Part shown: positions 36,321 to 57,000 of the stretch, one piece after another | Layout: each line of letters starts with the position of its first letter | Numbering within the stretch: the first letter of the stretch is position 1 | Assembly (NCBI RefSeq): GCF_026151205.1 | Contig: NC_087076.1 | Span: 20,512,328-20,576,327, forward strand | Direction of reading: 5' to 3' | Source: Bolinopsis microptera | Taxonomy: Eukaryota > Ctenophora > Tentaculata > Lobata > Bolinopsidae | DNA: 64,000 bases | Translations under genes and position numbers: made by a program | Notes under the pieces: generated by a model | What the model saw: only the letters and a program-made list of their open reading frames with translations | The model's database searches: none | Told to the model about the DNA's origin: nothing

Positions 36321-38185
36321 TTAATAATAATAATAATTCTATACTGTTACATAATTTAAAAATTATGGCCCCTTATTGTGGGCAGAGTATGTGTCTTTAT
36401 TTAAGTGTCCTGATTTAAAAATCATCTGAGTGACTGCATTGAAATAATTTAAGGAGAGTACCATAAAAACGTTAAAACAAAAGGAGTAACAACTAGAACA
36501 TACTTATATTAATATCAACATTAGAACAAAATACAGTCACCTAATTCTCTTCTCCTACGGTTGAGTATAGAGGAACCATCTTTGGCGTGTATTAGGGACT
36601 TAGACCATTACAAATACCCTGCTGTAAGTTTGCAAGGTAAGTAAGTAAGTAAGTAAGTAAGTAAAGATTATGACATTACATCATCACAAGTGTCTAAAAA
36701 TATCATTGCACTAAATAGAAAAATAATTCAAATAGACATATTCTTCCATCAACATTAATAATTTATTAAATTCAATTTTATTAATTAATAAAATCTAATG
36801 CATTATATATAAATAATTAATTAAAACTTCCCAGTGGAATAAAGATTTATAAAACGTTTCTTCGCCACAAAAGGATGAAACCAAAGATATTCATTATGTG
36901 TCTCCTTATTGCTTAAATAACTGGGTCCTTCAATTTTCCCTAAAACTTCGTTCGAAACATTCCAAAAATAAAAATCATTTACACTGTTATTAGAAATCAT
37001 TTCTTTCTTAAATCCTTCCAACCTAACTTTAAAGCTTAAAACTGTCGAGCAGTTCTTGACATCTGAAGGGAGTTTGTTCCAGTAAGGAATGACTCGCTCC
37101 GGAAGAAAAGAAGACTGGAGATTCTTAACTTTAGTTACACTCTTACTACACCTATTGGTTGAAACTAGATTAAGACCAGATCTGCTCATTCTGAACAAAC
37201 CCGATCCATATTCAGTCAAACCACTAGTTACTTTAAAAGCTTCAATAAGGTCCCCACGTATTCGCCGCTCTGCCAGCGTTGTCAAATTGAGGATATCCAG
37301 TCTACGGCTGTATGGAAGAGTACCCACCTCATCAATAAGACGGGTAAACCGCCTCTGGACGCTCTCCAGCTCCAAAACAGTCCCCCAACTTCCATGAGCC
37401 GCAACTGGATTCCACAATTGGACACAATACTCAAGATGAGGTCTTATCAAAGCTTTATAAATAGCTATCATTACAACCTTTTCTCTAATAACTAAGTTCC
37501 TTACAATCCAGCAGATCATACGATTTGCTTTAGAAATACATGCTTTTATCTGTTCATTCCAAAGCAAGGAGCTATGGGTAATAACCCCCAAATCTTTTTC
37601 CTGTGCAGATACTTCTAGTTCTACTCCATTTACAATATAATTCGAGTTAGGATTATTATTCAGATTAATATGGACTACTTTACACTTGGCAGGATTGAAG
37701 TTTAAGTGCCAAATACTCTCCCAAATTTCGAGTTCTAAAATATCATCAGATACACTTTTATGGTTAGCTGCATTACAAACTAACTTGAGATCATCTGCAA
37801 ATAATTTAATCTTATTTTTAACATTGTCAGGTAAATCGTTTATATAAAGAATAAACAACAAAGGACCTAATACTGACCCCTGGGGAACACCAGATAATAC
37901 GTGTTTCACCTCAGACCATTGACCTTCTACACAAACCCTCATGGTTCTGTCTGTCAGAAAGTCTTTTATAACATCTAAAACTTTTCCCTTGACCCCAAAC
38001 CCCTCCAATTTAGATAGAAGTCTAAAGTGGGGGACTGTATCGAAAGCCTTACTAAAATCAAAATATAAAAGATCAACAGGAGCACCTTCATCTAAAATAT
38101 CAAGAATATTATCAAATGTCTCTAAGAGATTAGATAGACAAGATTTACCCTTCACAAATCCATGCTGATGCTTTGAAAAGGTATG
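36321..38185 (-). mobile_element. 5'-truncated LINE inserted in the host LINE (element Y)
   Basis: It encodes reverse transcriptase from HQHGFVKGKSCL through the LLYFDFSKAFDTVPH, SGVPQGSVLGPLLF and KLFADDLKLV blocks to a stop at 36821, followed by a ~500-bp 3'UTR with a TTAC microsatellite (36638-36664) and an (ATT)n tail at 36321-36335. The endonuclease and N-terminal fingers are missing. The last ~76 bp are identical, but for one base, to the 86-bp insertion at 39655-39740. The 444-codon frame has no internal stop, so the copy is fairly young. Jockey/CR1-group by motif style. Confidence 0.8.
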
Positions 38186-38745
38186 TGGACTAAGTGGGTC
38201 GAGAGTACTCGACTTGGAAGTGGGTGTTGAGAATTCTCAACTAAACTAGAAGATAATGATGTCCAGAAGATGAGGCAGTAGATGGAGTAGTAAAGGAGTA
38301 GTAGAGGCTGAAGGGGGAGTGATGTCATAAGGAGATGTAGGACATGAAGGGGGATGGAGGTGAAGGAGCACTAATAAGTATAAGTATCAATTCTATGATA
38401 GTTCATCGATGGCGATCTGTGCTAAAGATCGGAAGGCAGTGATGCTGCCATCACTACCATCTCTTAAGATAGACCAGCATGGTTGGTCACTAGTGGAGTG
38501 CTCTTGAATGGTTTCTCTGTAGGAACAGCGGTACAGTGGACAAGAGAAGATTCGATGGTAATTGTTGTCCAACATCTGACAATTCGGACACTGAGGGTCG
38601 CAGTTGTTGGCAACCCTTGCCTTGAATGCTGTGAAGGTGATGTCATGGCCATGCAAGAGAGACATTACTTTAGTGTCTGTGCTCCTGCTTGAGTAGCGAG
38701 GAAACAACTTTTTGCTCCTCTCATCGATGTTATCCAGTATCTCAC
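38186..38745 (-). pseudogene. LINE C-terminal zinc-motif fragment plus 3'UTR (element Z)
   Basis: In frame with the host RT, the coding sequence changes at KESSNP to a different C-terminus containing LLHGHDITFTAFKARV, CPNC, and HRIFSCPLY, then a stop at 38393. GH-x-T followed by C-x2-C-x8-H-x4-C is typical of the C-terminus of other LINE clades and is absent from the host family. It is followed by a ~200-bp purine-rich stretch that runs into element Y. It is therefore a piece of a third element. Confidence 0.65.
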
Positions 38746-39795
38746 CCGGATTAGAGGACTCTTTAACATAGAATTCAGATCCTAGACGTTGAGAATTAAT
38801 TGGTCTTGCTCTAGCACATTTCTTGAATCTGTCTACATAAGCTTCATAGTCTCCAAATAGAATCCTGATACACTTCTTTTGAGTAATAAATAGCGGTTTT
38901 AACTGATTATTGGGAATACCTCCCCAGACAGAAATAGCATAACCTAGGTGTGATTCAAAGAGAGAATGATATATTTGCTTATACAGTGATTCTGGTAAGC
39001 ATTTCTTAATACGGTAGGTACGTCCACAAGCACTTCTTAGTTTCTTGTTGAGGGATGATATATGTGGTTTCCAGCTCAATTTATCATCCATGATTACTCC
39101 AAGAAATTTTGTCTGACTTACACGTTTAATTATTTTGTTATTAATGGACAAGTTTTGGCTATCTATATCGGCATCTAATTCGTTATTATTACGTTTAGAG
39201 GGAGAAAAATACATGTAACAACACTTCTTTACATTAATGTGCAGTAGGTTAACTCCCATATACTTGTTTACGGCCTGTAGTACTTCATTAGCTAATTCAT
39301 ATGCTTTATTTCTCGAATCGGCAGCGACAAATATATTAGTATCGTCTGCAAATAAGACAAATTTACCCTTTTTAGTTATATTGCATATGTCATTGATGTA
39401 CAGTAGGAAAAGTAGAGGTCCTAATACACTACCCTGAGGGACCCCGAATTCGACCGGTAATTCATCAGATTTGGTATCCAAAACGTTTACAAATTGTTTC
39501 CTATTAGACAAATAACTAGAGATAAGATTCAGAGCATTTCCTCTTATGCCGTAGTTGTTTAATTTTGTAGTTAGTTTACAGTGGTCTAGAGTGTCAAAGG
39601 CTTTTGAGAGATCGATAAAGACCCCTAGGACATGTTGCTTTTTACTAATTAACGATAATAAATAAAGACACATACTCTGCCCACAATAAGGGGCCATAAT
39701 TTTAAATTATGTAACAGTATAGAATTATTATTATTATTATTAATTAACGCTTCTATATGTTCTACAAAGTAGTTCAGTGCATGGCTGGTGGAGTG
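38746..39795 (-). pseudogene. Host CR1-like LINE, reverse-transcriptase fragment
   Basis: The frame contains KGHSTSHALNYFVEHIEALI, SKKQHVLGVFIDLSKAFDTL, FGVPQGSVLGPLLFLLYIND, FVLFADDTNIF and the YRIKKCLPESLYKQIYHSLF ... ISVWGGIPNN region, close to the complete LINE at 47437-50790. It is cut twice: by an 86-bp insertion between LI and SK of HIEALISKKQH, and by the Z/Y block after KESS. A stop marks the 5' truncation near 39795. Confidence 0.85.
39655..39740 (+). mobile_element. 86-bp severely 5'-truncated LINE insertion with 9-bp target duplication
   Basis: Flanked by TAATTAACG (39646-39654 and 39741-39749). Removing the insert and one TSD restores the host reading frame HIEALISKKQHVLG exactly. 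The insert equals the last ~76 bp of element Y, ends in an (ATT)n tail and lies in the opposite orientation to Y. Confidence 0.9.
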
Positions 39796-41631
39796 TCCTT
39801 TTATTACAGATTAAACATATCATTGTATCACGTTGCGACCCCCACGGTCGTTTCACTATCGTCCTGACGATACAGGGGGAGCCGCGCACTTCGTGCGCGG
39901 CGGGTCATACAACTGACAACGTATGACAAACATATCATATATAACCATAAAAGCCGCGCGTCGGCTGATTGCCTCATTTTGGATATAAAATAATTTTAAT
40001 CGACAGAAGCTGATGAAGATTGAAAAATATCAGCTCAAAAAGCTTAGCTTGCACCATTAAAAAGATCAAAGACTTGAGTGCCAAATTATTTAGTTGATGG
40101 TCATTGGTCATCAGATTATAAATTATAGGTCATATTTCAATTTTCCTTTTAATAATTGATAATATTAATCACGGCGCGACCATTTAGTCATACTAAAATG
40201 TTAAGGCAACAAGCTTTTACAGTTCAATGATTGGTTCAATCATTTTAAAATCAATATTGGAACGAATAATTATTTAAAAGTTGATTAAAAATAATAAATA
40301 TGGAGCATATGCAGCAGTTAGCAACAGCCAGTAGTAGCCAGCAGCAGCTAGCAGCAGTTAGCAGTAGTTTGCAGCAATTATCAGCAGTTTCTTTGTACCT
40401 TAGTCTCACTGTGTTCAAAGCGCGCGTCAGTTGTTCTTATTCCAAATCTCAAACTACATATGCGCGACGCGCATGTTTTTACCAAACAGTAGTACAAAAA
40501 TCGAGCGCTTCATCAATATACGTCAAGTATTTTCTATAATGTTTATAGGATCGTGTCGACTGTGAATATGTCCAAACTACAACTAATGTTACTGGACAGT
40601 GTCTGAAAGAAGTGAAACAAATTTTTAGTGAAACAAATTTAAAATTTTATCCTTTATTTTACAATCATAATATAATAATATTTATAAGCCTCCGTTTTGA
40701 AAGTTTTAAATTTTAATACATTCACATTTCTATTTAAAATTCAATTTTATGTACAAGTTAATAACTGGCCGCCAAAGCCGCGCATTCTTGAAAACAGGAT
40801 TAACTTGATTATAGTTATACGACTATGTAAATTAAAAACTATCCGTGGTTTTTTCTTTTAAATAAATAAATTATAATTTTACCTAAGTCCAAAGCCAGCT
40901 TTGAAAAATTTACTATTAAATCATAATATATCGTCAACTTTAAATATTTACAATGCAACAATTCATTAATCTGTAAACACGCGTACTCCAGCCCCTAAAC
41001 GCATAAATTGTTATGCACTGCTGCGCGCAGTGTTGTGACCCCTCTTCGTCGTATTTTACACATATTTGGACGTTGGCAATTTATTCAATTGATAATTTTA
41101 AAGTTTTAACATTTTTTATTTTAAATTCTTTTTTAATATAGTTCTAAAACGATTAAGCTAGCTTTCTGTGAAAATTTAATGTACTTTCGTAAAATAATTT
41201 TGATGTGGCAGCGATTTGAAAAAGAAATTAGTTAAAAATGATACAAAAAAATTGGACATTTTTTGATATTAAAACATGTATAACTTTGGCTGTGTTGACA
41301 GTAGAAAAATAATTTAACCCTTGTCCGAAAGGTTTACAAAAGTTTTACGCGCCGCGCATAATTGCCGCGCAATTTCGCGTGTCAAATCCGTCTAAGAGTG
41401 AACATAATTGATGAAGGAGCACGTTGAGCTTTACACCTCGTGCGTTCACTGTTCGCGCCTTAATTGCGCCCAGTTCACTTGTCACTGTTGCCTCGCGTTA
41501 TTCCATCATCCATATTTCTGCTCTTAGTTGCTTTATAATGTGTCAGCAGTAATCAGCCCTGCTGTATTATATATTGTGCTTGATTGTTGATATCTAATTC
41601 ATTAACTGTTTACGATGGCAGTTTATATGGT
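39796..41631. other. Intergenic DNA, no gene supported
   Basis: AT-rich with GC islands (CCGCGCACTTCGTGCGCGG palindrome near 39881) and a CAG/TAG-rich run at 40310-40390. A ~50-bp segment at 41000-41055 (CACTGCGCGCAGTGTTGTGA region) is inverted at 46235-46285. Confidence 0.5.
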
Positions 41632-41910
41632 GGATGATGATTAATCACTCTACAATCGCCTGTCACGTGACTTCTTCAACCCGTTCTGTAGATGGCCCTA
41701 AACAACTATTCGAAACCCGGAAACCATAACCCTCTAATCAGATCCCAACCCTAACGGCCTAACCCTAACCAAACCCTTTACAAAAGCATATACTGAAACA
41801 CTATAGAGAAATTAGGCTAACTTCCTTATACGGTCATATCACGTGATCGAGACAGTTTTTCGCCAATATCTCGTTAGGGGAGAATTTTAACCTTATGTCA
41901 TGGGGGTAAT
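41632..41910 (+). repeat. Dispersed ~270-bp repeat with TAACCC-like hexamers, copy 2
   Basis: Same-orientation relative of 11399-11670, about 85-90% alike by eye, with small indels around the CCCTAACC cluster. Confidence 0.85.
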
Positions 41911-42587
41911 AGGTAAGTGCTTAGTAACCTCTTTGCTTTTATTCGAGCCTTTTATTAAATCGAAGTTACAGTTCACGAGGTTGATCCTTTGGGAGATATT
42001 AAATCCTGTTTTACTATTATTTATAAATTCTAACGTTTAACTTTAATAATAATAAGTAAGTTTGGACGCGACTAGAAACGAGTTTAATCGACTAAGTTTT
42101 TGATTTTGTGTACCTTTTTATCATACAACTTTTTAATTTCAGCAAATTTTAGTTAAAGAGTAAATCAAAGTTAGCAATCATTGAACTCAATAGTTAAAAA
42201 GGTGACTGTAAAAATAGAACTAAGATTTCGATACTTTTAAATGAACTTCTAGTTCTAATGATATAATTTTAAATTATTAGATGTTTAAATTTTCCTGATA
42301 GCTGGATCATAGTCATGTAGAAATTAGGTTAAACATTGTCATGCAGAAATTAGGTTAGAATAATTTTGTCCATAGAAAACACAGTCACGCCTTACATTAT
42401 TACAAGCTTTAAAGGGCTCGTGAGTCGTGTTAGTGTTACTATTACTTTTGAGCTTGAAAGCAGACAAAACTTTGCTTATTTGTTTGTTTATTATTTTGTT
42501 TGTTATTAGAGAAAGAAGACAATATTACCTCTCGATTATTTCAGGAGAAGCTAAAAGCGCTGAAAGACCAAAAAGCAGCTTCCGCAG

Positions 42588-45500
42588 GAGCTGTTGAATC
42601 AGCACGCTGAAGAAGTACAGAGACTGGTGAACAAGCTGATAAACTCAGACAGCAGCAAAAACTTCAAGTGAGCTTCGTGACGTCATTGACATTACCGTCG
42701 TTGTGACGTCATTTTCGATGTTGATCCGTGATCGAATGAATTTATTTGTATTCTAGAGATTCTATTTTAGCATTTGACAAGTAACAACTTTGGCTCTGTT
42801 TACTGTGCTGTAATGCACTGAACGACCGGGATTCCCGGCGCCGGGGGAGGTGTTTATTCCCGGCCCCGGCCAATTTTGAGTTTTTGGCCGGGATCGGAAT
42901 TATAGATTAAAAAGTCACATAAGAACATAAAAACTACTGTCTTATTTGACCCCCAATTCATACTTACATTTACAACTTATCTTATATTGGTAAGGGATCA
43001 ATTAGCCGAAGTTGAAATGGAAAGTGCCAGTTTTAATTTAAAGTCTGAAGCACTGAGCGTGAAAAGTGATATTAAAATGGACTCTAAAAGTGCCTGTGTC
43101 TTCATACTATAGTGTTCCGCCTTACTTCTATACTACTATAATCGAGCAGGACTTGACAAGCCCACTAAAATAAGTTGTGTAAAAAATACCACCAGTTCAC
43201 GGCCCAACCACATTGTTTATTTGTACACCCAGTGAATTATTCCTTATATGGCGCGAAACATTCCTGGCCTAACGTGTGTGCTGTGTTTCTCCGCACTATC
43301 AGTTGACTACCATTCATGATATGTAGTTGACTGCCTCTGTACTCGCATTTATGTGTTACTTGTTTTTACGTGTTTGATTTAAATTGCTCGTGATTAGACA
43401 CACGTTCGGTGAAAGGGGAGGGGATAGTTTTCACTTTTCAGACAAGGGAAGGGGCAAGGAAACGTGTGATTACTTGATTATTGATTTTTCACGTTTTAAG
43501 TTAATCTCGACACGTGTTCAGTAATTATGTGTTTTATAAATACCCTTATACTGTTTACACTTTTTAAATCCCTTTAAAGCCAACAATATAATCCACGAAA
43601 CAGACTCCTGGCACTAATTTCAGGATCTAAAATAGGCCCGGGCTTTTTTAAAAGTTACTGACATGACGTTGGTCCTCACTTTTTGGAGTCTACTCCCTCA
43701 TTTCCAGGTTAGTGCACTATTAGTGGGGAGGAGGTGTATTAACTTTATCAGTCACGTAACCTCATGACACTCCCCATCACGGGTAACTTGTAATGGTAAC
43801 GTTGTCATGGTAACAGAAATGTGTTTTCAGGCTGAACAGGAAGCTGTACAACAACCGGTCTGACAAGTTACAAGTGGTGGACCTACATCATCTAGGTGTA
43901 CAGGTTCGTTCATTTACTGATTGATAGCTTTTTTAATGAACTTATTTGTTTAGATTTATGACGTGTTTCTCAATTGACAATTTTATACCCTCGAGATAAT
44001 ACAAAATTCTATGAAGGATACATTTTTAATGTTCAATTACATAAATGACAAACTTAAGTTGACTAAATCGCTGCCTGTATTTGGATTATTAAAAAAAATC
44101 AATTTGGTGTGACCACAGTACCATAAGTCGCACTGAGCATAAAACCTGTGAGCAAATCACCATACTTAAAGAGTGTGTGCCAGCTCATGTCCGTCTTCAT
44201 AACCTCTTCCCTCCACTGTCCCCATCTTGACTGCATCTCAAGAGAGCCGCATTGAACTTCCCTTTCATGCTCGAGGTTTCTTTTAACTCTCTGAAGGACC
44301 TCAGCTTGTTGTTCCCGGGCGTTCATCTTCTTCCACGGTTTCTTCCATTCTCCAAAACCAATACTTGCTCTGCTGTACGGCTGGACCATTCCTCTCACCG
44401 CTTCACAGACTAAGTCCCTCTCAGCACAATCTAGTTCCTTGTCTGGTCTCCAAACTCTCCCTGACCTGACTTGCGGTTGAATCGCCCTTATCATGTCATC
44501 AAAAAACTGCTGGTAGGACTGATGGACAATAATTAAAACTAAAAGGAGAGAGTGACGTGCCACACCCTCTGAAATCAATGAAATTTGGCGAAACTTTCAG
44601 AAATACTAAGTTTGACTCGCATGTGAAGGTCGCTAAACTGAATGTAATATTTCAGGTACAAATTCTACTAGTACGATTCGATGCAGTGGAAGAGGTTGAA
44701 GTTGACGTTTAAGCAGTCACCCTGCCGAACAAGAAATCAGTCAGGCAAAGAGGCTAGGTTGACTAGAAACTCAATCACTATATCCGTGAAACTTGCTGGA
44801 AGCTATGTGAGTTATTTTACCTCCTTATTTCAAATGACCTCCAAACCAATTACATTGAACTTTGAAGAGGTGAAGAAACCATTAATATTAACTGAATTAA
44901 ATGCGACTATAAAACCGAAATAGTAATACACTGCTGACTACAAAGAAACATCTTACATGGGGCCAGGCTCATATAAGAGTTCATATGTTAGTGTTCATAG
45001 CCGTTGAAAATATGGCGGAATGACAGGCTGAATGTGGCCCAGTAGAAGAAAAAAACATTATAATTCTTTCCGACCATAATAGAAATACAATTAAACTAGA
45101 ATGAAACAAAGAGTATTAAATTTTTAAATTAGTCGAGTCAACCAAATTTCACAGAGAAGCTGGACATTTATACGACAATTTAAACGCAATGTGTATGCGC
45201 CGTGATCAATGGTCACGGCGCATAACCATTGCGCCGTGACCGTTGATCACGGCGCATAACCCGTAAGATGCTGCGCACATTTTTGATTTTAAAATGGCGG
45301 GAACACATTTCAACTGCCATTGTTATACGATACATTGAAGTGCATAGTGGAGTGTGTGGTCTGATAGTAGACAGAGGATTTATTTGAAACATTCCCGGTG
45401 CCTTCAACTGTTCTTTGCACTGACTATTTGATTGCTTAAACGAATAGGCGAGCCTTCAAAAACATTAGTTTCAATGTTTTCATAGTTTTATGATGCAAAT

Positions 45501-45629
45501 ATGATTTTTCCATTTACTTAACTGATAATACCCCCAATATCTTTTCAGGTGTGGAGGTCGGACCGAAACTGTAATCAGACACTAAACATTAACGAGGACC
45601 AATTATTTTACTCCTTTAATGATGAATAA
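42588..45629 (+). CDS. Unrecognised gene, last three coding exons (5' end unknown)
   Basis: Exons about 42588-42667 (start could be 42579), 43831-43903 and 45549-45629 join in phase through canonical sites (donors GTGAGC and GTTCGT; acceptors TTTTCAG). The product reads ELLNQHAEEVQRLVNKLINS, DSSKNFKLNRKLYNNR, SDKLQVVDLHHLGVQ, VWRSDRNCNQTLNINEDQ, FYSFNDE and stop: a charged, partly coiled-coil C-terminus I cannot name. Just upstream an acceptor at 42543 opens EKLKALKDQKAA in a frame shifted by one relative to the exon, so either there is a frameshift or the acceptor is not used. The last intron holds LINE debris (44099-44578). The stop TAA overlaps an AATAAA signal. It could be an active gene or a partly decayed copy. 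Confidence 0.45.
44099..44578 (-). pseudogene. Retroelement-derived fragment (LINE ORF2 C-terminal region)
   Basis: The 159-codon frame has a central MNAREQQAEVLQRVKRNLEH and then SLEMQSRWGQWREEVMKTDM, SWHTLFKYGD and SATYGTVVTPN. The pattern of charged helix, QxxWxxWE, (I/M)SWxxLW and LRATYDxLPxPxNL is common in a widespread invertebrate and fish retroelement protein. It is truncated where the cysteine cluster would follow. It lies within the last intron of the plus-strand gene. Confidence 0.4.
45193..45258. repeat. Paired hairpins GCGCCGTGA...TCACGGCGC
   Basis: GCGCCGTGATCAATGGTCACGGCGC is followed by a similar GCGCCGTGACC...GATCACGGCGC after ATAACCATT. Both are near-perfect stem-loops. They lie in the last intron of the unrecognised plus-strand gene. 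Confidence 0.75.
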
Positions 45630-45630
45630 A
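45625..45630 (+). promoter_or_regulatory. Poly(A) signal overlapping a stop codon
   Basis: GATGAATAAAGATC: the TAA stop at 45627-45629 is part of a canonical AATAAA at 45625-45630. Confidence 0.45.
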
Positions 45631-47330
45631 GATCGCTGATTGCTTTTACTAATATATAGTGTTAAAATGAAAGAGAAAAACGCACTCATTTATTTATAGT
45701 TTTATGTCTTAACAATGTTATTCGAAAGCTAATTTTAAAAGCTGGCTCTGAATCCTTGCTAAATGATTTGGGAAGGTGTAAGGACTAGATATGCCTTTAG
45801 ACATCATTTTCAGTGGGTTTTATGAAGTTTATGATTAGGGTATATTTTGTGACTGAAATAAGCGCAAGACCTTCGACGTTTCTATTCCTACTGTTTTTTT
45901 AATTTAGCAAATATACAAAAAAAAATTATACTGTCGTAAAGATAAAATGTTTAGTTATCGGATAGATACTTTAAAATTAAGTATTAAAATAACCGAGCTA
46001 AGATATTCAATGTTAAACTCAAAAATGTTCACGCGTTTATGAAGAAATATCTAATTCTGCACGTAGTTTTTTGGTCACAACTATGGCAAATTTTTACCAA
46101 TTTTGTTCATAATTTCTAAATGTTATCTAGTAGACAAATTACTTTCGGACTAAATCCTTATTGTTTATTCAAATCTAAAAGAAACAACATTTATTTGAAT
46201 TCAAAATTGTTCAATCTGAATACGAGCTAATTAGGACGAAGGGAGGTCACAACACTGCGCGCAGGAGTGTTATGCGGCGCGGCTCAAGCCGCGCACGCAC
46301 GTATTATTTTATACTGTTTGCTTTCTAATAAATATCGTGCCAATGTGTACGTCTAAATTGTAAACGTTCATGTTTTGTGTAAAGTGAATCCAATTGGGAC
46401 TAGTGACAAGGATAAGGACCCAAGTGCCTGTACGGCTTTTTCGGGCCCCTGTGGACCACTACTCTTGAAATCACTCTACAACATTGAACATCTATATCTA
46501 CTACGTCATTTGGCAATTATTGTCATTAATCTAACTTTCTAATTAATTGCCGAGGGGGAAGAGTAAACGCTTCACATTAAAATTCAATATACAAAATTCA
46601 AAACCATCAATACGGTATTAAATATTATGGACAAGTCTATAGATCTATTTCGTAGTCATATATTCACATGATTTGCTTTATATTATATTATCTTAATACT
46701 GTAATGAAGTACAGTAGGATTTGTGTTTCGAGAAAGAAAGGTTGCGGTCAAATTATTAACAAAAGTAAACAAAAGTCCATCAGGGACTCCGTGGAGTCGA
46801 AAAAGGTATACGGCTGCTGTCTGGTGCTGCTAGGCATTTATTGATCAAGATGTTTTATTGTATTGATTTATAATGATTCTATTGTTCGTGACTAATCAAG
46901 TTCTAAGTGGAGGTATAAAGTGCTGCTCAAGATACTTCGTCATCTCATGTCCAGTATAATGATTAAGATAGTATACAATGCAGTTTTAGTAGTTGACCCA
47001 TACAGTTAAGTCCGTCATAACTCACAATCGTTAAGTCGTCGGTCAATTGTCAAAGTCGTTGTGTGTTTATTCGTTGAGATAGCAGTAAGATAAGATGTTA
47101 CGCGCGCGCGCGTTTAATCCCGTCAACGTGAAATGTGACAATGAAAACGCCATAGAATTATTATTTTCGCGCGTTACGTAGAGTTTACCAGTGTGTAATA
47201 CTAGTTAACACTGGGTGTACACTGAGTGTAAGTGTAAGTTTCATATACAAGCCGTTGAATATTTCCAATTTTGAGTGTATTGTGAGCATGTTTTACAGTG
47301 CGATTGCTCGGTACTAGTGTGTTTGTGTAT
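45631..47330. other. Intergenic DNA, no gene supported
   Basis: AT-rich with a CGCGCG run near 47100 and a palindromic GCCGCGCA-rich patch near 46260-46305. Nothing coding is recognisable. Confidence 0.5.
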
Positions 47331-47436
47331 ATATATATATCATTTGTGGAGTATGGTGTAAGTAATGTTTTTGGTTGGAGTGCAGTGGTTATATGTATGA
47401 GAAAAGATATATGGTCATTTTAGTAACTCACATAAA

Positions 47437-50400
47437 TCAGAACTTGAGCTCATTTGTGGCAAAATTAAGCTCACACCAATCAAGTGTATCATGCTTGAAT
47501 TGCAATTCTCGTAAGGCAATTTTCAATATATTCTTAAACCCGTTTGATGGAGTATTAAAACTTATCTTACTTGATGTTTGTCGACAGCTGTTCCACATGT
47601 AGGATGATTGGTAGATGAATTGTGAGGATGGTTGTGATGTAATGAAATAATCCTCTCGTCGTGGTGACCTGTTAAATGATGAGTACAGTGATAATGGTTC
47701 CTCTAACTTATTAATTTTGAATAGTTCTAAGAGACAAGTGTACTTGTACAGATTGTGGACCGTCAACAACCTGTGGGTTTTAAACAAGGGCTTGGAGTGT
47801 TCTTTTTGGTAAAAGTCCACCCCCAGTCTTTGCTTATCAACAGGTCGTGTTCGGGCACACGTTTTAAACTTCTCTAGGTAAGCTTCTCTATCCCCAAACA
47901 GAATTCTTATACACTTTTTCTGTGTTTTAAAGATAGGTTCAAGTCGGTTATTGCTAATACCACCCCACACAGATATTCCAAATCCTAAATGTGATTCAAA
48001 TAGAGTATGATATAAATCCTTATAATACTGCTTTGGGACAATGTGTCGTATTCTGCACAGCTTTCCTACTTCGCATTTAAGTTTTGAGTTAAGTGACTGC
48101 GTATGTGATTTCCAGTTAAGTTGGTCGTCAATAATAACGCCTAGAAATTTAGCTTCTTGAACTCTTTTAATAACTACATTATTTAAAGTTAGTATGTTCT
48201 CGTCATTTTCTACTTCCTCTTTGGCCCGTGAGGGTTTAAAATGAATAAAACAACATTTCTTAATGTTAATATGTAATAAGTTTAGTTTCATATACTTGTA
48301 CACAAATGATAGAACTTCATTTCCTTTTTCGTATAGTCTTTTGACACATGTGTCTTCTATAAATATGTTAGTGTCGTCGGCAAATAGTATAAACTTTCCT
48401 ATAATTGATGAGTTACGGATGTCATTAATATAAATAATAAAAAGTAAGGGACCAAGACAGCTCCCCTGCGGCACTCCATAGACTACTGGAAGTTTCTCGG
48501 ATTCTTCACCTAATACCGAGACATACTGGTATCTGTTCGACAGGTAACTTGCTATAAGGTTATTTGCATTTCCACGGATTCCATAATTTTCTAACTTATG
48601 CAGTAACTTTTCATGTGATATTGTATCAAAGGCTTTACTAAGATCAATAAATATTCCAAGAACGTGTTGTTTTTTCTTGAGGCAAGATTCTACGTGGTTC
48701 ACTGAGTAATTTAGGGCATAACTGGTCGAGTGATTTTTACGGAATCCGTACTGGTTTTCATATAAGGAGTTCTGTGAATGAAAGAAGCTGTATAATCTAT
48801 TGAATATAATCTTTTCAAATATTTTACCAAACACAGCTAGCGTTGATACAGGTCTATAGTTTTCAAGGAGTTCCTGGTTATCTTTCTTGTAAATGGGACT
48901 AATCCTTCCAACTTTAAGGTCATCTGGAAATATGCCATCTTTCATACATTCGTTATACAGTACAGTGAGTAAAGGAGTAACTATTTTAGAGGACTGCTTA
49001 ATTACATGAATCGGTATGTCACTTGCCTTGCCATTTTTAAGTTCAGATATGATTTTGCTAACCTCGTCTGTTGTGCAGTCATGCATGTAAATGCTGGAAG
49101 TGTTTGAAAGCGGTAGATAATCATAGAAACTAGGTATACTGTTTATGTTAATTTGTCCAAGATCATTGTAAGCGGTATTTAGGTCAGAGGCTAATGATAC
49201 AAAATATTTATTGAATTCGTTTGCTATGATCCTTCTATTTGTTATCTTAACGTTGTCTATGGTGAACAGCGGCTTTATTTCACGCCGCCGTTTACCTCTT
49301 ATACGATTTATTAGTTCCCAGGTCTTTTTACTATCACCGCTATTTTCAGCAAATTTACCAGAGAAGTATTCTGTTTTCACAGTTTGACGTGTTTTCTTTA
49401 GGACTTTTCTGTATTCTTTGTAGATAAGGTAGCGACTACGTTTTAGTGAGCATTCAGGGCACTGGCAAATGCCGCCCTTGTTATCAGTTTCCCCGAGTTT
49501 ACATTTTCTATTTCTTATCTCAACCCAATTTTCGTACAGTTTATGCTGATTATTAATTGAGCAAATGAGACCGGGAGTTATCCAAGGGTTAACCTGAACA
49601 GTTCTCTTAGAGGTTTTCGGGGTCTCTAATTTAAACGATTTTTCGACGCAGTTTTTGTAAGTGTCATGGAATTCAGTAAAGTTATGGATTGTTTTAGTTT
49701 TAAGCTCATCTTCAAGATCCACTAGGAAGCCGTTAACATTTGATTGACAGAAGTCGTAATATTGTTTAAAAGAAGTTTTTTCAGAGTTGACTTCAACATT
49801 CCAGTTAAATGTGTTAAAAATAGGTGAGTGATGAGTTATTCGTTCTTTTAGGGTGCCTGAAGTAATCACATTCTCAATATCGTTAGTAATAATGTTATCT
49901 ATGCAGGATGCTTTACAGCCTGGTTTTTCGTGGGTAACAATAGATATTAACGGACAAAATCCTTTACTGAATAATATTTCTTCATATTTTTGAACATTTT
50001 TGTTATCTTTATCATGAAGATCGATATTAAAGTCTCCAGCTAGATAACTAAACTTCGGCATGTGATCAAGAAGGTTAGAAAGTTCAACTAGAGCTTGGGA
50101 AATACAGCCACTTGGTGGACGATACAAAACACCTACATTAACAGGTTGATCTTCGTTACTTAATGATAAGACAAGTATTTCTAGATGTTCTGTGACTTGT
50201 GATATATTCTCAATTACAGTAGCATTTAATTTATCGTCAACATAAAGGGCTACTCCAGTGCCCTTTTGTTTGTTAGGTGCTGTGTCCTGATAGTAACTAT
50301 TATAACCGTCAAGCTGAAATAGATTGCTTAATTCTTTTCCAGTGTTGGTTTCAGCTAGGGCTATTACGGAGAATTTTGTTTTGTACCTACAGGTTTCAAT

Positions 50401-50790
50401 GGCAAGGTTGTCAAAATTTGATTTATTTCCATCAATATTTTGAAAGAGAATAGATGATTGTTTCTTTACTTGGTTGCAGAGAATATTTGTAAGGTCAGAT
50501 GCAGTGTATGAGTTACAATCATTTAAAGTATTTGAGATTTTGGTTGTGTATTCGTCTAGGTTGTTGTCGTCGTCGTCATTGTCAGTGAGTAGTTTAAATG
50601 GGTTGTATTTAACCTTGTCTAAATGGATACAACGAGTACAGTAAAACTCATTAGATTGGCTATTTGGATTTGATTTGCGATAGCATTTATGGTGCATTAT
50701 GCAGTCACAGTGAAAACATTCAACTATTGTTTGGCCGATGACTATGTTCTTAGAACAGACAGGACATACCTCCTTAATGAGGGGAGTCAT
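47437..50790 (-). CDS. LINE ORF2: PHD-like finger, AP endonuclease, reverse transcriptase
   Basis: 1117 residues with no stop. Residues 9-54 form a C4HC3 PHD-like finger (C9, C12, C25, C28, H33/H34, C36, C51, C54). An acidic linker (DNDDDDNNLDEY) leads to the endonuclease (about 111-345) with LFQNIDGN, LAETNTG, YRPPSGC, LAGDFNIDLHD, SCIDNIITND and THHSPIF. Reverse transcriptase (about 600-870) has ENYRPVSTLAVFGKIFEKII, YGFRKNHSTSYALN, IFIDLSKAFDTISH, YGVPQGSCLGPLLF and FILFADDTNIF with both catalytic aspartates. The C-terminal domain ends ELNFATNELKF. It nicks target DNA and copies the element's RNA onto it (target-primed reverse transcription). All catalytic motifs look intact, so this may be a recently active master copy. 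Confidence 0.93.
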   Translation of the reverse strand: MTPLIKEVCPVCSKNIVIGQTIVECFHCDCIMHHKCYRKSNPNSQSNEFYCTRCIHLDKVKYNPFKLLTDNDDDDNNLDEYTTKISNTLNDCNSYTASDLTNILCNQVKKQSSILFQNIDGNKSNFDNLAIETCRYKTKFSVIALAETNTGKELSNLFQLDGYNSYYQDTAPNKQKGTGVALYVDDKLNATVIENISQVTEHLEILVLSLSNEDQPVNVGVLYRPPSGCISQALVELSNLLDHMPKFSYLAGDFNIDLHDKDNKNVQKYEEILFSKGFCPLISIVTHEKPGCKASCIDNIITNDIENVITSGTLKERITHHSPIFNTFNWNVEVNSEKTSFKQYYDFCQSNVNGFLVDLEDELKTKTIHNFTEFHDTYKNCVEKSFKLETPKTSKRTVQVNPWITPGLICSINNQHKLYENWVEIRNRKCKLGETDNKGGICQCPECSLKRSRYLIYKEYRKVLKKTRQTVKTEYFSGKFAENSGDSKKTWELINRIRGKRRREIKPLFTIDNVKITNRRIIANEFNKYFVSLASDLNTAYNDLGQININSIPSFYDYLPLSNTSSIYMHDCTTDEVSKIISELKNGKASDIPIHVIKQSSKIVTPLLTVLYNECMKDGIFPDDLKVGRISPIYKKDNQELLENYRPVSTLAVFGKIFEKIIFNRLYSFFHSQNSLYENQYGFRKNHSTSYALNYSVNHVESCLKKKQHVLGIFIDLSKAFDTISHEKLLHKLENYGIRGNANNLIASYLSNRYQYVSVLGEESEKLPVVYGVPQGSCLGPLLFIIYINDIRNSSIIGKFILFADDTNIFIEDTCVKRLYEKGNEVLSFVYKYMKLNLLHINIKKCCFIHFKPSRAKEEVENDENILTLNNVVIKRVQEAKFLGVIIDDQLNWKSHTQSLNSKLKCEVGKLCRIRHIVPKQYYKDLYHTLFESHLGFGISVWGGISNNRLEPIFKTQKKCIRILFGDREAYLEKFKTCARTRPVDKQRLGVDFYQKEHSKPLFKTHRLLTVHNLYKYTCLLELFKINKLEEPLSLYSSFNRSPRREDYFITSQPSSQFIYQSSYMWNSCRQTSSKISFNTPSNGFKNILKIALRELQFKHDTLDWCELNFATNELKF

Positions 50791-51692
50791 GGTTGGTAAC
50801 CATCCACGTGACCCTGACTAGCAGCAGCAGGAACAACAGGACCAGTTTCTCTTCCAGCAGTCGCATCCCTGTAGGATCTATCGTCTACCCTTGTGGACCT
50901 CCTCTTCCTTTTGTCGATACCACCGTTAATCCTGAGAAGAACAGTGTTACGAATAAATTGACCTAACTTTGCTAGTCCCCTCCAGTTGAGGTGAAGGAAG
51001 TCCGGTTTTTGGTATTTGTTGAGGTCGCGAGAGAGAGAGCGGTTAAGGAGACCATCCCTATCACAGAACTCATCAAATCCATCCACATAACTGACACCAA
51101 AATTGGACGGGAGCAGCCTACATCGAATCAAACTGTTAAAGTATATAAGCTTTCTATTTAAATCAGCACGTTTAGAAGGAATTGTTGGACAAACATATAC
51201 ATGCACACCCGGATTAATAGATTGAATCTGGGCAATTTTTGAAACTAGATGGTTGTAGATTATATCAATATCGTTTTGGCTTTTTACATCTGTTTGTTTC
51301 AGGTCATTAACCCCACACAATATAACACAGTTTCTATAGCCACAGGACACATAAGGATCAATGCTATCGACAGTTGGGGCAAAGAATCGTTTTCCAGGAA
51401 GCCATTTGCCGAATGACTTGGCAGGATCAGAACCGAATTTCAGTCCGCCGGTGTTCGAGTCCCCAATGATACATGTAGCGTTTCTATTCAGGGAACTGAC
51501 TGATCTCAATGTTATACTGTAGCGCAGCCCAGTTATCTCGCCTGCATCGATACGATGGTGGAACAGTGCTTGGCTACGACGAGTCATTACATATAATGAT
51601 CCTGGGCCACATAGTTGCTTGTGCTCATCAATACCTGTACTAGCATCAGAGAAAGAAATGGTGTTTAAGTACAAATCAACAGTGTAGGCCAT
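50787..51692 (-). CDS. LINE ORF1: AlkB-like C-terminal half fused to SGNH esterase
   Basis: 301 residues. Residues about 72-270 form an SGNH hydrolase: block I GDSN (S79), GVND (127-130), and D231-x-x-H234 before N236. An esterase domain in ORF1 is established for CR1-group LINEs. Residues 1-65 look like the distal half of an AlkB-type 2OG-Fe(II) dioxygenase fold: TISFSD, GPGSLYVM, HHRI, then RYSITLR (57-63), which fits the RxNxTxR signature that binds 2-oxoglutarate. The HxD pair that would complete the iron site is missing and a stop lies just upstream in frame, so either this copy is 5'-truncated or the domain is a relic. The basic C-terminus (RKRRSTR) may bind RNA. The stop overlaps the ORF2 start. 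Confidence 0.75.
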   Translation of the reverse strand: MAYTVDLYLNTISFSDASTGIDEHKQLCGPGSLYVMTRRSQALFHHRIDAGEITGLRYSITLRSVSSLNRNATCIIGDSNTGGLKFGSDPAKSFGKWLPGKRFFAPTVDSIDPYVSCGYRNCVILCGVNDLKQTDVKSQNDIDIIYNHLVSKIAQIQSINPGVHVYVCPTIPSKRADLNRKLIYFNSLIRCRLLPSNFGVSYVDGFDEFCDRDGLLNRSLSRDLNKYQKPDFLHLNWRGLAKLGQFIRNTVLLRINGGIDKRKRRSTRVDDRSYRDATAGRETGPVVPAAASQGHVDGYQP

Positions 51693-53197: not shown

Positions 53198-53900
53198 ATG
53201 ATCGGAGAAGGTGGTTTTGATGATGAGGGTAACAGGTCCTCAATCTCGTTACAGGATGATACGCCAAAGAATGACAGGAATGTTAGCGAAGATATGTTAT
53301 CCCCGCAACGTTTCACACCTACCCTGAACTCATCCACATCCTCTGAAAGTACTCAACAGCGACAAGGTAACATTCTTCAATACCAGTTTGCCTACATCAA
53401 AGACGGCACTTGTAACACCTGTAATGATGTTCAAGCTAATGACACTGCTCTTACCTGCTTTTTGTGTAAATCGTCATTTCATGCTGTTTGTCGAGATGCT
53501 GATAAAGATAGGATCAATAATGCTGTAATCTGTCCTCGCACTTTCTTCAAAGCATACTCCGACAGAAACGCAACCAAGGGTGTTAACAGTTCCAGATTTG
53601 GGACTTTTACGTTTGTGTGTAATGTCTGCAAGACACACTCTGAACAGAACTCCGCAGTCAGTGCCGAAAGTAAAGTCGACCTGATTGACAGGCGAGTAGA
53701 TAATCTGACCCAATCTATGGAGGACATGAAGGGTTTACTTATGAAAGTTGTGAATATGAAAACATCTCCGGACAAAACTGAAATTTCTTCTCCTCCATCT
53801 CCAGCACCAGTTGCCCCTTCATATCGCTCTGTATTAATCATGTCCAGCAAAACACCAGAAAATCAAGCAAAAGATCACCAAGAAGAAGTTGACAAAATCA
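53198..53900 (+). CDS. PHD-finger LINE ORF1-like protein, cut by an assembly gap
   Basis: The frame starts MIGEGGFDDEG and has a S/T-rich lead, then a C4HC3 PHD-like finger (CNTC, CFLC, HAVC, CNVC; about residues 71-145), a short coiled coil (VDLIDRRVDNLTQSMEDMKG) and a proline-rich linker (SSPPSPAPVAPSYRSV) before running into Ns at residue ~234. PHD followed by coiled coil is the known layout of ORF1 in several CR1-group LINEs. The orientation is opposite to the LINE piece at 52937-53082. The remainder of the ORF is lost in the gap and does not continue on the other side. Confidence 0.6.
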
Positions 53901-54000
53901 NNNNNNNNNNNNNNNNNNNNNNNNNNNNNNNNNNNNNNNNNNNNNNNNNNNNNNNNNNNNNNNNNNNNNNNNNNNNNNNNNNNNNNNNNNNNNNNNNNNN
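53901..54000. other. Assembly gap (100 N)
   Basis: Exactly 100 Ns, a conventional placeholder for a gap of unknown size. It falls right at the outer end of a large palindrome, a common place for assembly breaks. Confidence 0.99.
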
Positions 54001-54001
54001 T

Positions 54002-57000
54002 CGGTTACAGGCTTCAGCAATTGTTCACTAACCAATTAGACCTGAAATGAAAGAAATTGTATAATGGGAACCAGGTTACGATAAAAATGATCATCAAAAT
54101 TACTTTTTTTAAGAAGGATACCTCACTATTCAAACATCATAGCAACAAACTTCACATATCAATTGTCGTTTGATGTTGTATTTAGTAAACCACCGGCTCT
54201 GCTTGTGCACAACACAAGGGTATTTATTTTTAAATGCACTATCCAAGGATGCTTTATTACATACCTTAGGCATTTAATCGTTGCAGTTGTTTCTATATGT
54301 GGCAGTCCTGAGCGTCAATCTTTTTCGTCTTTTGTCTGCTCATTTCTCATTTCAAATCGATGAGGCAGGACTAGAATTTAGCAATGTTCTGTGTGCTGTA
54401 CCTAACTATAGTGTGCGTGGCATTTATTATCTTGGTCTCCGTAAATGTGGAAACCATTGAATATGTCTACCAATGCTCCTCAGTCGACCACAAAGCATTT
54501 AAAATAGCGTTTAGTGTTTTGACCAGCTGTGTATTTAGATGAAGCAAGGTCAGGAACCCAGCATGGTGGAGGATAATGACAGTTATCGTGCAAAAAGATC
54601 TGTCACTTTACTTTTGTAGCTTTCAATTCTATCAGAATCGTAGTTTGTAAATTCACATACCTTTGATGAAGTAAATGTTAGACAGTGTTTTTATGAATAT
54701 ATCCCCGTGAAAAACTTACTTAACAACAGTAAGATAATAAACTTCTGAGAAATTCAATCATGAAGGGTCTTATTTCATCAAAAAAGCTGAAGTTTGAAGG
54801 CCATTGAAAACAACGCTGATATAAATGAAAGCCAAATATATATGTAATCTTCAGCTCAACTGTCCATCATGTCTGTTAGATTATGATAGTTGCAGTTCAA
54901 CTACAGTAAAAGCAGATAAAATTAAAACAATTATGCCCTTAAACTGTATGTCTTGAAAGAGCAGTTTCTTCTGGGCTTCTGGTTGTTAGAAGGCATCTCA
55001 GTTACCAGTACTTGTGATTCCGCGGTTATAGCTTGAACCATGTTTTGTGCATGCAACACTTAGATGAACCGTTGATTAGAAACATTGAAGAGATTTCAAA
55101 GCAATCTCTTGCAGTACTACCGTCTTCGTTCTTTAGACCAAAGTAGTTGAAAAGAATTATGTGGTGCCACAGGACTCTGCAGTAAATATCCACCATAAAG
55201 ATCTTCACAATCCAGTCAACACCAGTGATCCCGGGAATTAGCTCTCTTTTGGTTTTTTCTTCCTTTCCACTTGGTCACTGAGCTGAAGTTACTCTCATCA
55301 CCACATGTCAGTTCAATCAGTAAAACTAAAATATTCTTGGAGAATGGAACTAACTGACAAAATTAAAATATCCAACCTCTAGCATTGTAGGTATGCTGAG
55401 GGAATTGGGCAGGGTATTTATCTTCGTCAAACAGTATATTCCAATCTCTTGCATCACTAGAGATGTCCTTCTTCATCATCATCATCTCCTTACCAAGCTT
55501 CTAGTACTGGGTAAGTTTAGACCTGAGCTTAAACCACAGCTCCCACAGTCCTCCTTGGGTGACGGGTGTGTTACTACTCTCTCTGTTGTCTGCCAATTGA
55601 ATCGGAAAGGTCGAGGTGATTTCATGTTAGTCTTTAAATCTCTATTGACAAAATGTGTAATACTCTAATCGTGAAATATCGTCAACTCACTACTAAAGCC
55701 CTTTGCATTGGATCAACTCCAACAAAATAACTTCAGGTCAGCCTACAAAATGTTCGAGTATTCACAAAGTGAGTGAAAATGTCTCGTATAGCGCTCGATT
55801 TTTCCTAACGATATTTTTTAACTTTCGGTAATGACGACCAAACGCATTGCGCGGCTTTTTATTTTTAAAATAATTATTTTTATCTAACAAAATTGCTAAT
55901 TATTATCCCGTATACATTTTACTATTTTAAAATATGATATGAATAAATATTATAGGTTATAATTGTATAATTTTAAATTACTTTGTAAAATAACAAAATT
56001 TGAACAATTATGTATTTAAAATTTATAAAAAATTTTAAATACGGTAAATTGTTTATTGATTTTCAAGAACTGTTTCATTCATTTGAAATTTAATTTATAA
56101 TATACTGGAATCGGACAATTTTGGGGTTTTGCAATTTTTTGTTAGCAAAGATTTATATTAAAAATAAAAAGCCGCGCAATGCGTTTGGTCGTCATTATCG
56201 AAAGTTAAAAAATGTCGTTAGGAAAAATCGAGCGCTATACGAGACATTTTCATCCCACTTTGTGATACTCAGAACATTTTGTAGGCTGACCCTGAAGTTA
56301 TTTTGTTGGAGTTGATCCAATGCAAAGGGCTTTAGTAGTGAGTTGACGATATTTCACGATTAGAGTATTACACATTTTGTCAACAGAGATTTAAAGACTA
56401 ACATGAAATCACCTCGACCTTTCCGATTCAATTGGCAGACAACAGAGAGAGTAGTAACACACCCGTCACCCAAGGAGGACTGTGGGAGCTGTGGTTTAAG
56501 TTCAGGTCTAAACTTACCCAGTACTAGAAGCTTGGTAAGGAGATGATGATGATGAAGAAGGACATCTCTAGTGATGCAAGAGATTGGAATATACTGTTTG
56601 ACGAAGATAAATACCCTGCCCAATTCCCTCAGCATACCTACAATGCTAGAGGTTGGATATTTTAATTTTGTCAGTTAGTTCCATTCTCCAAGAATATTTT
56701 AGTTTTACTGATTGAACTGACATGTGGTGATGAGAGTAACTTCAGCTCAGTGACCAAGTGGAAAGGAAGAAAAAACCAAAAGAGAGCTAATTCCCGGGAT
56801 CACTGGTGTTGACTGGATTGTGAAGATCTTTATGGTGGATATTTACTGCAGAGTCCTGTGGCACCACATAATTCTTTTCAACTACTTTGGTCTAAAGAAC
56901 GAAGACGGTAGTACTGCAAGAGATTGCTTTGAAATCTCTTCAATGTTTCTAATCAACGGTTCATCTAAGTGTTGCATGCACAAAACATGGTTCAAGCTAT

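Follow-up and report, generated by a model that had tools for sequence, protein, structure and literature searches.

The open reading frame at positions 50787–51692 (minus strand) of the 64,000-nucleotide stretch of DNA analysed here, referred to as the window, is the remnant of ORF1 in a 5′-truncated LINE copy, from a lineage whose complete ORF1 runs from a putative PHD-type finger through a linker and an AlkB-type dioxygenase to an SGNH esterase, and whose AlkB domain would probably demethylate the element's own RNA or DNA. Comparison of the sequences makes evident the order of the domains, the conservation of their catalytic residues, the purifying selection that acts on AlkB, the overlap of ORF1 with ORF2 and the element's spread across many families within a single genome.

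A truncated LINE copy retaining half of an AlkB domain

The ORF comprises 301 codons from an ATG at 51692 and lies on the minus strand, the plus strand being closed there; the initial annotation, which named no strand, had described it as a LINE ORF1 joining an AlkB-like half-domain to an SGNH esterase. That annotation was correct in giving the esterase triad as S79, D231 and H234, and the three strings it quoted, GPGSLYVM, HHRI and RYSITLR, do occur in the translation. The frame derives from a LINE but is not a native ORF1, as its start lies in flanking DNA: DNA identity to full copies begins at 51658, so residues 1–11 are flanking sequence and the AlkB domain is halved. Most simply, the halved domain reflects ordinary LINE 5′ truncation, and two other loci, L047 and L055, are comparable truncated copies fused to foreign frames. 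The distal AlkB part occupies residues 12–63 (51504–51658, minus strand) and contains the second Fe-ligand histidine, H46, and the RxxxxxR arginines R57 and R63, without the HxD motif, as established by a family profile, residue numbering and a check of the corresponding columns in relatives. Judged by its residues, the AlkB half of this copy cannot be active because the HxD motif is lost. The esterase and ORF2 frames are still open.

Taken alone, the window ORF gave no Pfam match to AlkB at E values up to 10 and no PDB match up to E 10, and a single-sequence structure prediction (pLDDT 33.6) gave the fold no support. A profile of 12 family AlkB domains matched residues 15–67 of the window's stop-to-stop frame at profile positions 120–173 of 173 (E 2.9e-19); since that profile includes the 99% identical copy L031, the match shows family membership and not independent homology to AlkB. 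The SGNH esterase domain spans residues 64–256 (50925–51503, minus strand). Here Lipase_GDSL_2 (PF13472) matched with E 9.5e-7, its score of 29.9 bits falling short of the curated 32.9, and a family profile built from a set that includes a 99% identical copy matched with E 8.8e-100.

The whole LINE copy extends over 40611–51658 on the minus strand. BLASTN against the full copy L031 aligned 51658–46268 with 99.67% identity over 5395 bp and the remaining 3′ end, 41015–40611, with 99.75% identity over 405 bp, the two parts being separated by a nested insertion (46267–41017). The ORF1 stop and the ORF2 start overlap in an ATGA at 50787–50790 (minus strand). The same overlap occurs in 19 of the 25 fetched loci examined (it is absent from L034, L035, L039, L040, L052 and L053), an arrangement consistent with termination-reinitiation. 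ORF2 (47437–50790, minus strand; 1117 codons) comprises a zinc-finger-like N-terminal part, an endonuclease-like region and a reverse transcriptase. The reverse transcriptase matched RVT_1 with E 2e-36, Exo_endo_phos scored 21 bits (E 3e-4) against a cut-off of 24.5, and all zinc-finger matches fell below their cut-offs; matches in the PDB included the L1 reverse transcriptase and, at E about 0.001, the L1 endonuclease. No Pfam match to RNase H was found in the window element, which is classed as a LINE, putatively of the CR1/L2 (Jockey) lineage, by the combination of RVT_1 with an APE-type endonuclease, the latter matched below the Pfam cut-off, and no RNase H.

The 3′ tail (40611–40640, minus strand) consists of short direct repeats of TTTGTTTCACT units with no poly(A), and loci L031, L033 and L034 end in the same way. 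Short 3′ repeats without poly(A) are typical of CR1/L2 elements. Between the two ends of the window copy no clear target-site duplication was found, only a weak similarity of TTTCTTTC to TCTTTC. The insertion in the 3′ region, 5251 bp long (window 41017–46267), has imperfect terminal inverted repeats of 33–36 bp and is flanked by an 8-bp duplication of GCATAACA at 46268–46275 and 41009–41016; it resembles a DNA transposon that could encode little protein.

Relatives encode a complete ORF1: putative PHD finger, linker, AlkB and SGNH-like esterase

The window ORF was used as a query against its own genome (264.65 Mb in 232 contigs), and 131 matches were scored of 540 candidates. Aside from the window itself, long relatives start at about query residue 10–16. 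Of the scored matches, 113 start at or before query residue 29, within AlkB, and continue into the esterase, and 60 lie in open frames of 640–799 codons in which the match has no stop and the AlkB residues are present. In the near-identical copy L002, a frame of 714 codons that begins at a TTG contains a Cys/His finger and a linker, followed by the motif HSDNE, the distal half of AlkB and then the esterase. The order in the longer ORF1s is a putative PHD-type finger, a proline-rich linker that appears by eye to be coiled-coil-like, a complete AlkB domain with an upstream HSD[N/D/R]E motif, and the SGNH esterase, giving full ORF1 proteins of about 630–750 residues depending on the family. The upstream HSD motif was flagged in 24 of the 26 fetched loci (L031–L056), the exceptions being L047 and L055, which are truncated downstream of the motif.

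The complete domain is recognised directly by Pfam. PF13532 scored above its cut-off of 31.2 bits in all eight whole ORF1s of relatives (43.0–60.0 bits). Each of 12 AlkB regions, 11 of which have 40–74% identity to the first one, gave a match to it with E no higher than 1 (best 2.7e-17). In the numbering of that first sequence of the alignment, the first Fe-ligand histidine is residue 99 and the distal histidine residue 157. A PDB profile search with the 12 AlkB regions ranked human ALKBH2 best (E 5.6e-8), followed by ALKBH8 and ALKBH3; ALKBH5 and FTO were absent among its 19 matches. The flanking domains gave lower scores. Among the eight whole ORF1s, PHD was above the Pfam cut-off in one, below it in four and unreported at E 0.01 in three, with the Cys/His pattern visible. 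PF13472 was below cut-off in seven relatives (18.1–27.7 bits) and unmatched at E 0.01 in the eighth; a related AlkB–SGNH family of 676 codons exceeds that cut-off (33.6–34 bits). SGNH regions matched SGNH-type hydrolases in the PDB weakly (best E 0.0012), and the esterase domain is classed as SGNH-like by its residues and E values, with the curated score missed.

The AlkB call that the initial annotation had made on the roughly 65 residues preceding the esterase is therefore right, as the PF13532 matches in longer relatives, L002 among them, attest. Both checks that it had proposed, a search for an upstream HxD in longer family members and an AlkB profile search, gave positive results, and longer relatives starting at the same methionine with no dioxygenase core were not seen. 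Its term half-domain is true of the window copy and not of the element, because it had missed the 5′ truncation. Two trivial readings of the locus can be weighed here. The window ORF by itself has no Pfam AlkB match, and it might be argued that 65 residues resemble the end of AlkB by chance; this is refuted, and we give it practically no credence, because the same stretch forms the end of a PF13532 match (60 bits, E 4.8e-16) in L002, a longer copy that is 99% identical. A single fusion event, or an assembly chimera, confined to this locus is just as hard to credit, even though the ORF begins in flanking DNA and the truncated L047 and L055 are likewise fused to foreign frames: the matches that run from AlkB into the esterase are too many, the 131 scored matches occupy every one of contigs C1–C13 and others besides, and related families reach down to 43–47% identity, which refutes a private fusion.

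Constraint on the AlkB domain and relations between families

Conservation was examined in 12 representatives from 16 aligned loci. The four excluded loci were L036, whose frame is broken, L044, which is close to L042, and L047 and L055, in which the cut falls within or beyond AlkB; the HxD motif is still present in L036 and in L044. With the AlkB residues named in the account of PMC544882 (HxD, H, RxxxxxR) as criteria, the Fe ligands H, D and H and both RxxxxxR arginines are invariant in all 12, as are the esterase catalytic serine, the block-III asparagine and the aspartate and histidine of DxxH. Purifying selection evidently acts on AlkB: of nine pairs, five had a measurable dS and gave dN/dS values of Nei–Gojobori type of 0.147, 0.124, 0.155, 0.084 and 0.226, the other four being saturated. 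Values for the esterase were 0.107–0.240 (six of nine pairs measurable), those for the linker were mostly higher (0.09–0.61, six of nine pairs), and those for the short C-terminal tail were erratic, reaching 1.7 at a dS of 0.03.

Trees of the AlkB and SGNH domains agree in their main groups (L051 with L052, L053 and L054; L031 with L034; L040 with L042 and L043; L048 with L050), support not being good on every branch, and from this agreement the joining of the two domains seems to predate the split of the families. The alignments also indicate that families recombine. L042 and L040 have 90–97% identity from the 5′ end through AlkB, then 68–80%, and lower still near the 3′ end, the pattern that would be left if LINE lineages had swapped a 5′ module; the break is sharp and falls at the AlkB/esterase border, at about L042:2760–2800. 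L031 and L034 show 71–80% identity in the linker, AlkB and much of SGNH, and mostly 87–99% elsewhere. The full copies L031–L033 are 99.5–99.7% identical over 7.0–7.2 kb with both ORF1 and ORF2 open, which points to recent activity of the LINE.

Spread through the genome

A PF13532 profile search of the genome returned 587 first-look candidates, and 151 matches were scored; every match listed passes the cut-off, all but one with at least 66.7 bits. None of 150 PF13532 places has any of the 131 matches to the window ORF on its own strand at a distance of 1.5 kb or less, and the 150 are therefore other copies, mostly of other families. A search with part of a relative in the window family (L033:700–1365) had its best 150 of 808 candidates scored, most of them spanning AlkB into the esterase. 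Taken together, the best-scored matches of both searches amount to at least 281 distinct AlkB places. A few of the best PF13532 matches, for example C5:18690430, C2:9636400 and C5:22266892, seem to be single-copy and could represent ALKBH genes of the host.

The position of AlkB relative to reverse transcriptases was examined with the best 150 of 6502 candidates from an RVT_1 search. A listed AlkB lies 1.5–7 kb upstream on the same strand in 54 of these, and 43 of the 54 are at a distance of 3.0–3.5 kb; control counts were 2 on the opposite strand, 2 downstream and 0 after a shift of 100 kb. The other 96 have no listed AlkB upstream, the AlkB lists holding the best matches only. A location of AlkB mainly in LTR elements was considered and is unsupported: of 150 listed places for the integrase domain rve, 2 have one of the 281 AlkB places on their strand no more than 8 kb away.

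An SGNH search scored 150 places, 140 of them over the cut-off. SGNH follows just after AlkB at six of the 150 and precedes it by 1.25–1.8 kb on the same strand at eight, four of the eight being in frames of 2,200–3,321 codons and two having the two matches in different frames. For the other 136, the lists show no AlkB in the vicinity, which is no proof of absence, as they contain the best matches only. The order that is swapped relative to the window family is found at G000:C9:15866686–15868581 (frame of 3226 codons), C3:14441692–14443593 (3321 codons), C12:2468326–2469981 (2459 codons) and five more places. A second type of AlkB-containing ORF1, at L016:2687–3871 (plus strand), has no PHD match, an acidic N-terminal part and a complete HSDSE...H...RISITLR; its PF13532 score of 68.1 bits equals that of several 551-codon frames in the genome search. 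Beyond this genome, 53 stretches in viral contigs and 14 in prokaryote contigs fit the search pattern for relatives, and none was confirmed in either set. It is about as likely as not that AlkB, paired with SGNH in two orders, belongs to the regular equipment of many LINE families in this genome rather than being an oddity; it would then form an element-encoded system for demethylating nucleic acid, maintained by selection in an animal lineage that branched off early.

Relation to known elements

The closest parallels in architecture are CR1/L2 LINEs, with which the present family shares two ORFs, a putative PHD-type finger, an ORF1 esterase with the same catalytic residues, an RVT_1-type ORF2, and short 3′ repeats in place of poly(A). 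The PHD finger and the esterase are described as ORF1 parts of CR1/L2 LINEs in PMC4120745, in agreement with the view of the initial annotation that the esterase triad is known from CR1-type ORF1s; ORF1s of this kind (types III and IV; PMC4120745, PMC3905857) are credited there to a first description by Kapitonov and Jurka in 2003. What sets the present family apart is the complete AlkB domain between linker and esterase. The main text of PMC4120745 does not contain the words dioxygenase or oxygenase, and the esterase ORF1s it describes belong to only two vertebrate subgroups. No report of AlkB in a LINE was found among the papers listed in searches of the openly accessible literature. By sequence, the present ORF1 can be regarded as a CR1/L2-like LINE ORF1 enlarged by an enzyme domain, a strong addition that lends itself to testing.

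Related enzymes have been described in other mobile or RNA-based parasites. Ty3/Gypsy elements of Phalaenopsis, as reported in PMC9289625, also encode an AlkB-type dioxygenase, and the in vitro activity belongs to the orchid protein. That element is an LTR retrotransposon in which AlkB, named ALKBH5-like, forms an additional ORF; in contrast, the present one is a LINE in which AlkB is fused to the esterase in ORF1 and the nearest solved structures are ALKBH2, ALKBH8 and ALKBH3. In the Flexiviridae, plus-strand RNA viruses and thus also RNA-based parasites, AlkB with HxD, H and RxxxxxR is likewise a module of a larger protein that serves replication, the replicase polyprotein, a likeness drawn from the signature and the description in PMC544882. 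Fungal DNA transposons that carry TET/JBP (PMC12730594, as described there) share with the present LINE the encoding of a 2OG/Fe(II) dioxygenase by a mobile element, and differ in element class and dioxygenase family. The present case is thus a second pairing of AlkB with a retroelement, of another class than the orchid's, and together with its spread over many families this suggests that the trait pays off, that is, that AlkB benefits the element. In the prevailing view, it is the host on which the state of LINE RNA depends. The full AlkB–esterase ORF1 suggests that the present LINEs may act on their own nucleic acid by editing its methyl marks or damage, and a LINE with its own conserved demethylase would make it directly testable whether such marks or damage limit retrotransposition, and whether elements counter that limit.

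Proposed function of the AlkB–esterase ORF1

LINE ORF1 proteins are mainly RNA-binding and RNA-packaging proteins. In the proposed mechanism ORF1p would multimerise and package the element RNA together with ORF2p, whose translation would probably begin by reinitiation at the ATGA, and the esterase part would help to bring the particle to membranes, as has been proposed for the ZfL2-1 LINE, the esterase of which is reported to bind phospholipids and may thereby guide RNPs there (PMC3905857). Sitting on the element RNA, the AlkB domain of ORF1p would oxidatively strip N-methyl groups, either of the repair type (m1A/m3C) or m6A; alternatively it could act on cDNA or on target DNA during target-primed reverse transcription. 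Demethylation would keep the template readable or hide it from host marking. ALKBH2 is a DNA repair enzyme, and since it is also the closest solved AlkB, DNA may be the substrate. Viral AlkB has been interpreted as serving RNA repair in the account of PMC544882. As the putative function we rank demethylation of the element's own RNA or DNA first, with the base left unspecified.

An alternative to damage repair is the removal of host-placed m6A or 6mA marks as a form of epitranscriptomic or epigenetic evasion. Erasure of marks has precedents in the retrotransposon AlkB of the orchid Gypsy element, described as demethylating m6A RNA in vitro (PMC9289625), and in the dioxygenases of the TET/JBP-carrying fungal transposons (PMC12730594). 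The nearest solved relatives of the present domain, however, are not ALKBH5 or FTO, and the account in PMC7873242 has m6A helping L1 in human cells and ALKBH5 suppressing L1, so that an m6A eraser would be of no obvious help to a LINE; we regard mark evasion as an unlikely, though still noticeable, alternative. Decidedly less probable is the retention of the AlkB fold solely for nucleic-acid binding or scaffolding, with catalysis irrelevant. Such a role would suit ORF1 proteins as packaging proteins, and other LINEs are not known to need a dioxygenase, but a scaffold does not account for five catalytic residues that are invariant in 12 of 12 relatives at the divergence given above, or for AlkB dN/dS values of 0.08–0.23 in five pairs. 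Demethylation of the element's own nucleic acid is the reading that we prefer.

Other features of the window

Additional LINE-type sequences are found in the window. Two more ORF2-like remnants with RVT_1 matches (36821–38155 and 38393–39697, minus strand) adjoin the LINE, and at 53198–54031 (plus strand) lies the start of a further LINE-type ORF1, whose matches to PHD-like fingers do not reach the cut-off and whose frame is broken by a run of 100 N from 53901. A long inverted repeat, recognised by eye at about 55500–55830 and 56180–56500, is probably a palindromic or foldback element. Between 58224 and 63800, CT/TC-rich simple repeats yield overlapping Ser/Leu-rich open frames that look like repeat artefacts and not genes.
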